Assembly: GCF_000987835.1 (NCBI RefSeq)
Contig: NZ_CP011308.1
Span: 620,001-684,000 of the forward strand
DNA length: 64,000 nt
Reading direction: 5' to 3'
Source of the DNA: Sulfurovum lithotrophicum
GTDB taxonomy: Bacteria; Campylobacterota; Campylobacteria; Campylobacterales; Sulfurovaceae
Under the pieces are notes generated by a model. It searched no databases and was not told the origin of the DNA. It saw nothing but the letters and a program-made list of their open reading frames with translations. Shown here piece after piece: positions 5,140 through 25,324 of the stretch. Numbering within the stretch: the stretch's first letter is position 1; every line of letters begins with the position of its first letter. The translations under genes and the position numbers were made by a program.

Positions 5140-5370
5140 ATGAGCGGAACAATAACTAAAATAGACGAATTGGTATTGAGCGGCACAAAGGACGGAAAGA
5201 TCACGATAACAACGATCAGTGAGCCTTACGGTGCAGGAAGTGAAAGTGTGGCAAGCATAGGGATCTCTCTTCAGGCAGGTACCGAAGAACCGGACTGGAA
5301 AGTACATATTCCAAAAGAGAATATCGATGCGGTTATCGCCGCACTTCAGGAAGCTAAAAAAACGTTATAA
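5140..5370 (+). CDS. Conserved-looking small protein of unknown function
   Basis: 76 residues, acidic, with no signal peptide, Cys or membrane segment. The sequence alternates short beta-like stretches (KITITTISEP, SIGISLQAG, WKVHIPKE) and ends in an amphipathic helix (ENIDAVIAALQEAKK), suggesting a small alpha/beta fold. A promoter and AGGAG site support expression. I do not recognise the family; convergence with the PAS gene leaves only 27 bases between stops. Confidence 0.75.
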   Translation: MSGTITKIDELVLSGTKDGKITITTISEPYGAGSESVASIGISLQAGTEEPDWKVHIPKENIDAVIAALQEAKKTL

Positions 5371-5397: not shown

Positions 5398-5847
5398 TTA
5401 TTCAGCGGCTTTCATCTCTTTGTACTGGGCAAGTGCTTTGTTCATAGAATCCCGGTCGGGAATCTTACGTCCCGCAATATAACCTACAATATTCCCTTCT
5501 TCATCGAATTTCGGTTTGATCCAGACCACGACAAGGTAGTATTTGCCTTCACTTGTCATGTTTTTGACATAGCCTTCCCAGTAGTTTCCTCCTTTGATCG
5601 TCTCCCATAAACCTTTGAACGCAGCTTTTGGCATGTCCGGATGTCGATTGATGCTGTGCGGTGAACCGATCAGTTCTTCCTTTGTATATCCTGTCAGCTC
5701 TCTGAATTTACGATTGGCATAGGTAATGATACCGGCTGTATCCGTTTCCGTGATCATGACACCGCCGTCGAAAGGAACTTCTTCATCGACGGGATCAGGC
5801 TTGACGATCTCTTTATCTGTAATAATGTTTTTGATTGTTCTTCCCAT
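5398..5847 (-). CDS. Single-domain PAS protein (Aer-type sensor domain)
   Basis: 149 residues, essentially one PAS domain (about 25-135). The motifs TYANRKFRELTGYTKEELIG, SINRHPDMPK and WEGYVKN match the PAS of Aer-type redox receptors, which bind FAD or haem. No output domain (kinase, GGDEF or MCP) is attached, so it should act through a partner protein. The start ATG 5847 has AAGGA upstream. It lies directly downstream of a GEMM-like leader and promoter on the same strand, which suggests control by a second messenger or related ligand. Confidence 0.88.
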   Translation of the reverse strand: MGRTIKNIITDKEIVKPDPVDEEVPFDGGVMITETDTAGIITYANRKFRELTGYTKEELIGSPHSINRHPDMPKAAFKGLWETIKGGNYWEGYVKNMTSEGKYYLVVVWIKPKFDEEGNIVGYIAGRKIPDRDSMNKALAQYKEMKAAE

Positions 5848-5904
5848 TTTTTTCCTTGTATGACTTTAGAAAAAATAAAACCGGTTTGAAAGGCGTATCA
5901 GGGA

Positions 5905-5973
5905 GGCATGATAACCTGGCAAACTTCATGAGTCCCATGGCTTTCCGTCCCTGTTTTGCAACAGGTTTGGCTT
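5905..5973 (-). promoter_or_regulatory. GEMM-like (cyclic dinucleotide class I) riboswitch, variant binding site
   Basis: On the reverse strand the order is GCCAAACC, a six-pair stem closed by a GCAA tetraloop (5965-5950), then GGACGGAAAGCC, then a second arm (GGGACU...AGU...GCCAGGUUAUC). This matches the class I layout: tetraloop stem, GACGCAAAGCC-type joiner and GGGxCU/GCCxGGUU receptor arm. By eye against the Vibrio Vc2 RNA (numbering recalled), position 20 is C (5970) rather than G, position 45 is G (5945) rather than C, A47 is kept, and position 92 is U (5911) rather than C. A promoter lies just upstream and the PAS gene 58 bases downstream. The expression platform is unclear; a U-rich run follows at about 5880-5871. 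Confidence 0.65.
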
Positions 5974-5992
5974 TTTCAATTTATTTTAGATG

Positions 5993-6001
5993 ATTATATC
6001 A
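5993..6001 (-). promoter_or_regulatory. Extended -10 promoter of the riboswitch-PAS transcript
   Basis: Reverse-strand TGATATAAT (TGn-extended) places a start site near 5985, about 12 bases before the aptamer core. The leader before the PAS ATG would be about 140 bases. Confidence 0.68.
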
Positions 6002-24401: not shown

Positions 24402-24488
24402 TGGTGCGGACAAGAGGACTCGAACCTCCACGGGATTGCTCCCACTAGAACCTGAATCTAGCGCGTCTACCAATTCCGCCATGTCCGC
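24402..24488 (-). tRNA. tRNA-Leu (anticodon CAG)
   Basis: 87 bases, with CCA encoded. The reverse strand starts GCGGACATGGCGGAATTGG, the anticodon stem CTAGA/TCTAG closes loop TTCAGGT, a long variable arm follows, and the T arm is GGTTCGAGTCC. It is the last gene of the array in transcription order. Confidence 0.97.
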
Positions 24489-24528
24489 GTGTTTATCATT
24501 GGATTTTTATGATTATAATGTAAAGAAG

Positions 24529-24605
24529 TGGCGCGGCGGACGAGACTCGAACTCGCGACCCCCTGCGTGACAGGCAGGTATTCTAACCAACTGAACTACC
24601 GCCGC
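24529..24605 (-). tRNA. tRNA-Asp (anticodon GTC), copy 2
   Basis: 77 bases with CCA encoded. Acceptor stem GCGGCGG/CCGCCGC; anticodon stem CCTGC/GCAGG around loop CTGTCAC. The gene appears identical to the copy at 25155-25231. Confidence 0.97.
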
Positions 24606-24756
24606 ACCTGAACCTTAAAAGGTTGAAAAATATTGTATCTTTTTTTCTTTAAAAAAAGACTTTCAGAACAAAACTAGTTTTGTAAGCTTTCTGCTGAAGA
24701 AAACCCAGTGTTAACGTAGCTGAAGATGAGCTTTGCTCATTTCGCGTTCTTTCAAA
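24606..24756. other. tRNA spacer with several small palindromes
   Basis: This 151-base gap, the widest in the array, holds a perfect 16-bp palindrome ACAAAACTAGTTTTGT (24668-24683) and a hairpin ATGAGC-TTT-GCTCAT (24726-24740). There is also an A/T-rich inverted segment near 24640-24660. No tRNA or ORF was found in it. The palindromes may be processing or pausing sites. Confidence 0.5.
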
Positions 24757-24832
24757 TGGTGGTCGCTACAAGACTCGAACTTGTGACATCTACCTTGTAA
24801 GGGTAGCGCTCTACCAACTGAGCTAAGCGACC
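24757..24832 (-). tRNA. tRNA-Val (anticodon TAC), copy 2
   Basis: 76 bases with CCA encoded. Acceptor GGTCGCT/AGCGACC; anticodon stem CTACC/GGTAG around loop CTTACAA; T arm AGTTCGAGTCTTG. Appears identical to the copy at 24959-25034. Confidence 0.97.
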
Positions 24833-24855
24833 TTCTATCGAGCCATACGATAGGT

Positions 24856-24931
24856 TGGCGACCCCTAGAGGATTTGAACCTCTGTGACTACGATGAAAAC
24901 GTAGCATCCTTGGCCACTAGATGAAAGGGTC
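24856..24931 (-). tRNA. tRNA-Glu (anticodon TTC)
   Basis: 76 bases with CCA encoded. Acceptor GACCCTT pairs with AGGGGTC through one G-T wobble; anticodon stem CTACG/CGTAG around loop TTTTCAT; T arm AGGTTCAAATCCT. It sits between the two tRNA-Val copies. Confidence 0.96.
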
Positions 24932-24958
24932 ATCTAGATCCAAACAGTCATATTTGAA

Positions 24959-25034
24959 TGGTGGTCGCTACAAGACTCGAACTTGTGACATCTACCTTGT
25001 AAGGGTAGCGCTCTACCAACTGAGCTAAGCGACC
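24959..25034 (-). tRNA. tRNA-Val (anticodon TAC), copy 1
   Basis: 76 bases with CCA encoded, same stems and loop as the copy at 24757 (anticodon loop CTTACAA). Confidence 0.97.
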
Positions 25035-25054
25035 AAATTATGAAACTGTTGTGG

Positions 25055-25130
25055 TGGTGACCCGTCTAGGATTCGAACCTAGGGCCCACTCCTTAAAAGG
25101 GAGTTGCTCTACCAACTGAGCTAACGGGTC
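25055..25130 (-). tRNA. tRNA-Lys (anticodon TTT), copy 2
   Basis: 76 bases with CCA encoded. Acceptor GACCCGT/ACGGGTC; anticodon stem ACTCC/GGAGT around loop CTTTTAA. Appears identical to the copy at 25249-25324. Confidence 0.97.
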
Positions 25131-25154
25131 AACGATGATAAAATTGTAAATAAA

Positions 25155-25231
25155 TGGCGCGGCGGACGAGACTCGAACTCGCGACCCCCTGCGTGACAGG
25201 CAGGTATTCTAACCAACTGAACTACCGCCGC
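25155..25231 (-). tRNA. tRNA-Asp (anticodon GTC), copy 1
   Basis: 77 bases with CCA encoded; same sequence as the copy at 24529 (anticodon loop CTGTCAC). It lies between the two tRNA-Lys genes. Confidence 0.97.
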
Positions 25232-25248
25232 ACATTTATATATACTAG

Positions 25249-25324
25249 TGGTGACCCGTCTAGGATTCGAACCTAGGGCCCACTCCTTAAAAGGGAGTTG
25301 CTCTACCAACTGAGCTAACGGGTC
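25249..25324 (-). tRNA. tRNA-Lys (anticodon TTT), copy 1
   Basis: 76 bases with CCA encoded, first gene of the array in transcription order, about 30 bases downstream of the predicted start site. Confidence 0.97.

Follow-up and report, generated by a model that had tools for sequence, protein, structure and literature searches.

A GEMM-I aptamer of the c-di-GMP-I class with a private U92 precedes an Aer/CetB-like PAS gene in Sulfurovum lithotrophicum

The minus strand of the window, that is, the whole stretch of 64,000 nucleotides of Sulfurovum lithotrophicum DNA that was analysed, carries a class I GEMM aptamer (GEMM-I) at 5981-5906. It joins the c-di-GMP-I class as a new, ordinary member, and the non-standard ligand contacts attributed to it in an earlier note reduce to one private base, U92. 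Most probably, the transcript of a PAS gene starts here with a class I c-di-GMP riboswitch of the ordinary kind, turned on by c-di-GMP and with an affinity that U92 probably weakens. The features of the locus are collected in Table 1.

Table 1. Features of the aptamer, its leader and the downstream gene (positions in the window)
Feature	Position	Strand	Evidence
Class I c-di-GMP (GEMM-I) riboswitch aptamer	5906..5981	-	RF01051 63.7 bits, RF03167 61.1, own model 80.5
P2 stem with GCAA tetraloop	5950..5965	-	Covariation in 6/6 pairs
P3 arm (tetraloop receptor side)	5913..5942	-	Covariation in 6/10 pairs
G20, G-alpha contact, kept	5971	-	Rfam alignment, phylum alignment
C21, paired with G46 (5945); 'C20' of the earlier note	5970	-	Rfam alignment, covariation
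G46, paired with C21; 'G45' of the earlier note	5945	-	Rfam alignment, covariation
A47, stacked between both guanines, kept	5944	-	Rfam alignment
U92 replacing C92, the pairing base of G-beta	5911	-	Rfam alignment
Extended -10 element TGATATAAT	5993..6001	-	Exact match; no recognisable -35
Alternative terminator-like hairpin	5884..5924	-	-10.6 to -11.6 kcal/mol
U tract UUUUAUUUUUU past the hairpin, 3-base spacer	5870..5880	-	Sequence
Gene for 149-aa Aer/CetB-like PAS protein	5398..5847	-	Pfam PAS_3 E 3.5e-14; Aer PAS (8dik) E 1e-23

Aptamer architecture and covariation

The GEMM-like aptamer that the earlier note had recognised on the reverse strand was borne out by two Rfam models, both significant, as it had proposed to check. 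A direct search with RF01051 (c-di-GMP-I) gave 63.7 bits against a gathering cut-off of 35, and cmscan of the whole window gave 61.1 bits for RF03167 (c-di-GMP-I-GGC), with a cut-off of 59. The two matches overlap, RF03167 being the best by E-value and RF01051 the best by bits, and the clade's own covariance model scored the aptamer at 80.5 bits. The GNRA-capped stem, joiner and receptor arm described from the letters correspond to the GCAA-capped P2, GACGGAAAGCC and P3, while P1 is weak. The architecture, the GNRA tetraloop with its receptor and the bases G20, C44, A47 and A48 are shared with Vc2 of Vibrio cholerae, the GEMM-I prototype. A plus-strand "terminator" at 5950-5965, returned by the promoter and terminator scan, was rejected, as it is merely the P2 hairpin in reverse reading.

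Covarying stems in homologous leaders were looked for, as had also been suggested, and were found. In a structure-fitted alignment of 102 campylobacterotal aptamers, a type of alignment that leans to its own structure, 98.4% of cells were paired and 14 of the 18 pairs had changes on both sides. Cells changed on both sides numbered 279, compared with 54 in shuffles, none of which reached as high, and sliding the pairing partners as a control lowered the pairing to 50% or less. Within this alignment, pair 21-46 was C-G in 98 aptamers and G-C in two, and pair 22-45 was C-G in 85, U-A in 14 and U-G in one.

Matches to RF01051 were found in 43 of 397 campylobacterotal genomes, and the S. lithotrophicum genome holds four further copies besides the PAS leader. 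These four stand before genes for a PilJ-domain protein and for secreted proteins of large size, a typical GEMM set. Across the phylum, the aptamers precede genes for secreted proteins, pili, taxis and secretion, as c-di-GMP control would lead one to expect, and this setting among surface, pilus and taxis genes is the one known for c-di-GMP-I. A GEMM-I subgroup with an altered P2 internal loop was also observed, with a base other than A at Vc2 position 24 and matching changes at 42/43, in 10 of 115 aptamers (loci L012, L113, L117, L123, L124 and L129). This loop occurs in all seven aptamers fronting one cluster of secreted proteins, two of which were scanned and have Laminin_G_3 or P_proprotein domains. 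Tandem GEMM-I aptamers, about 110-145 bases apart and in front of one gene, were observed in L012 (1501-1709; G224) and L076 (1155-1374; G396).

Ligand-contact positions and their distribution

In Vc2, C22-G45 is a P2 pair, G14-C93 forms the top of P1, and the ligand is contacted by G20, A47, A48 and C92 (PMC3764141). Numbering of the window aptamer was anchored backwards from the invariant AAACC and forwards from GACG, which places C22 at 5969, G45 at 5946 and C93 at 5910, together with the positions given in Table 1. This is matched by the Rfam alignment, in which the window has U at model position 75, a consensus C that is unpaired past P3. Thus, two of the contact bases of the c-di-GMP-I class are present (G5971 and A5944), and the third, C92, which is usual but not universal among members, is replaced by U5911. 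The earlier note had read a C at position 20 and a G instead of C at position 45. Both assignments were off by one, as the bases are C21 and G46 and the real G20 is unchanged. Since position 21 pairs with 46 in the Rfam model structure, the two reported changes are one compensated base pair, inverted from G-C to C-G. G21 and C46 have been named among the residues adding to binding energy (PMC9049102), so the inversion lies near the ligand, yet it does not concern a specificity base as had been claimed. The same note was right about the U at position 92 and the retention of A47, and U92 is the sole genuine pocket change among the three reported oddities.

Of the 115 campylobacterotal aptamers aligned, 114 retain G20 and all retain A47; C21:G46 is found in 111 and G21:C46 in two. 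At least 115 stretches from outside the phylum also showed the C21:G46 form, a set selected for C21/G46 and therefore not usable for the frequency of that pair; all 17 loci checked were confirmed by Rfam as GEMM-I aptamers. In 87 C21:G46 aptamers of this set, A47 is universal, and 84 have C at position 92, two have U and one has A. The C-G pair, which differs from the G-C of Vc2 and is common in nature, is near-universal in the phylum and also present in several other phyla, and is thus ordinary. A lineage-specific specificity class based on C21:G46 was rejected, since genomes of Methylomicrobium, Vibrio jasicida, Desulfonema, acidobacteria and others carry it as well. The specificity changes supposed at 20 and 45 thus prove a false lead: they are one compensated pair common across bacteria.

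Position 92, by comparison with the C92 of Vc2, is the other difference. C92 is found in 112 of the 115 campylobacterotal aptamers, including the other four of this genome, and U92 in three, from three different genomes, the window's included. Given that conservation at G20 and C92 is lower than at A47 (PMC9049102) and that two other campylobacterotal members have U92, this base represents a departure within the family, not an exclusion from it. Across the loci collected, U92 is sparse, in unrelated genomes and never in a clade: it was observed in L118, before an L,D-transpeptidase-like gene, in L055, before a possible sensor gene, and in L194 and L206, from Methylomonas and another Sulfurovum.

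The PAS gene and its leader

The riboswitch precedes a lone single-domain PAS gene (5847-5398), as the earlier note had described. Its product matched only PAS families in Pfam, and the solved structures closest to it are of the PAS domain in Aer, the aerotaxis receptor of E. coli (8dik). It is a short protein with an Aer-type PAS, the domain it has in common with Aer, as its only recognised domain, and it resembles the free-standing PAS protein CetB, which forms the PAS half of CetA/CetB, an energy-taxis system in Campylobacter jejuni (PMC2628428). By analogy, the product may bind FAD and act with a CetA-like partner. The convergent 76-aa ORF at 5140-5370 had no Pfam match.

Close relatives of the PAS gene are present across the genus, and an aptamer lies upstream in 18 of the best 30, the window included; the other 12 had no upstream aptamer match, counted irrespective of contig ends. 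The collection of homologous leaders in Sulfurovum that had been proposed therefore yielded 17 other PAS leaders, all with C92. That U92 is private to the window among the 18 same-gene leaders speaks against a ligand change conserved in the genus, and this base could still alter affinity. Within the genus, the switch recurs before an Aer/CetB-like PAS gene, which would connect redox or energy sensing with c-di-GMP. Other PAS paralogues follow at least two further aptamers of the genus (L068 and L087).

The leader's own extended -10 promoter was likewise found, as a perfect TGATATAAT just upstream of the aptamer. Exact matches to this element number six in the window, against 1.75 expected, and a consensus -35/-10 scan returned no promoter for the minus-strand leader. 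Downstream, the 5' arm of the terminator-like hairpin (5924-5884) consists of the 3' strand of P3 plus U92, with U5911 pairing with A5898. The hairpin is modest, as 15 of 200 shuffles fold equally well, and a three-base spacer separates it from the U tract. When the whole leader is folded, the structure of best energy also has part of the U tract paired with the 5' part of the aptamer, which muddles the terminator reading. A scan of the 18 PAS leaders at all hairpin lengths found terminator-like hairpins of -6 kcal/mol or below in nine, most of them overlapping P3, compared with 4.2% of 360 shuffles; about half of the orthologous PAS leaders have no clear hairpin of this kind. In the 115 aptamers, scanned with strict spacing and even-length steps that do not register the window's own hairpin, 16.5% had one of -12 or below, compared with 5.2% of shuffles.

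The Geobacter cGAMP riboswitches (GEMM-Ib) resemble the window in their fold and in a terminator that sequesters position 92; in one of them, pilM, the base equivalent to C92 is captured and ligand binding is lost after the terminator forms (PMC9262584). The involvement of P3 and U92 in the hairpin, as in pilM, together with the excess of hairpins in the leaders, favours with moderate confidence a c-di-GMP ON switch acting by antitermination. Without ligand, residue 92 would be captured by the hairpin along with the 3' strand of P3, and transcription would stop. With c-di-GMP bound, the aptamer would hold P3 and the PAS gene would be made. In the proposed pocket, G20 would read G-alpha and A47 would stack between the two guanines, and G-beta opposite U92 would form a G-U type contact in place of G-C, probably with lower affinity, so that the switch is perhaps less sensitive. 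Through the Aer/CetB-like product, c-di-GMP may tune redox or energy-taxis sensing. The C92U change is a natural one and directly testable.

The ligand and alternative readings

A domain search of the genome gave 18 matches to GGDEF and none to the c-di-AMP cyclase (DAC) domain. With G20 kept and no DAC domain, c-di-AMP was rejected as the ligand. Known cGAMP riboswitches (GEMM-Ib) have A at position 20, the base on which the earlier note had built its suggestion that the leader may sense another dinucleotide. The window has G20, so the A20/cGAMP analogy does not apply; the suggestion is unsupported, the 21-46 pair being compensated and common and U92 being private to the window's leader. An altered specificity can still be framed on U92 itself, in which G20 would read a guanine and U92 an adenine, and the leader would sense cGAMP or another G/A mixed dinucleotide. 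U92 would suit adenine, and the Vc2 double mutant G20A/C92U switches to c-di-AMP (PMC9049102, PMC7288161). Such a sensor would have changed the side of the pocket opposite to that of the A20 riboswitches. However, U92 occurs in only one of the 18 same-gene leaders and is scattered elsewhere, and no Hypr cGAMP enzyme, which has Ser at the Asp of the GHxxGD motif (PMC6456294), was seen among the GGDEF matches: the full motif is readable in 11 of the 18, all of which keep Asp. We therefore consider this reading very improbable.

A less remote reading, although still an unlikely one, is that of a decaying or detuned copy, in which U92 has weakened or abolished the response to ligand and drift is under way in the leader of this species. 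The private nature of U92 would fit, as would the 12 PAS orthologues, among the closest 30, counted above as lacking an upstream aptamer match, where the switch seems to have been lost at times. However, every other feature is intact, as reflected in the score with the clade's model, and the pairing of U5911 with A5898 is kept in the alternative hairpin, so that the expression platform fits the change. True membership of c-di-GMP-I-GGC, with the possibly different ligand behaviour of that variant, is hardly credible. The overall sequence is similar and the RF03167 cut-off was passed, with the better E-value, but the consensus of that model has G47 and G21:C46, compared with A47 and C21:G46 in the window, a contradiction at position 47, and RF01051 is ahead by bits (63.7 compared with 61.1). 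Moreover, all C21:G46 aptamers examined keep A47, and many of them score above the RF03167 cut-off. The Rfam label should therefore not be taken literally for the window, which is without G47.

The name GGC presumably refers to positions 20/47/92. The c-di-GMP-I variants were reportedly described by Weinberg et al. in 2017, and no statement of a ligand was found in the literature naming c-di-GMP-I-GGC. In Rfam scans, many aptamers with A47 and C21:G46 are labelled c-di-GMP-I-GGC despite the consensus G47, and the label looks unreliable. Elsewhere in the window, the minus strand at 24405-25324 carries eight tRNA genes with identically scoring copies (24760/24962, 25058/25252 and 24532/25158), as if by block duplication.
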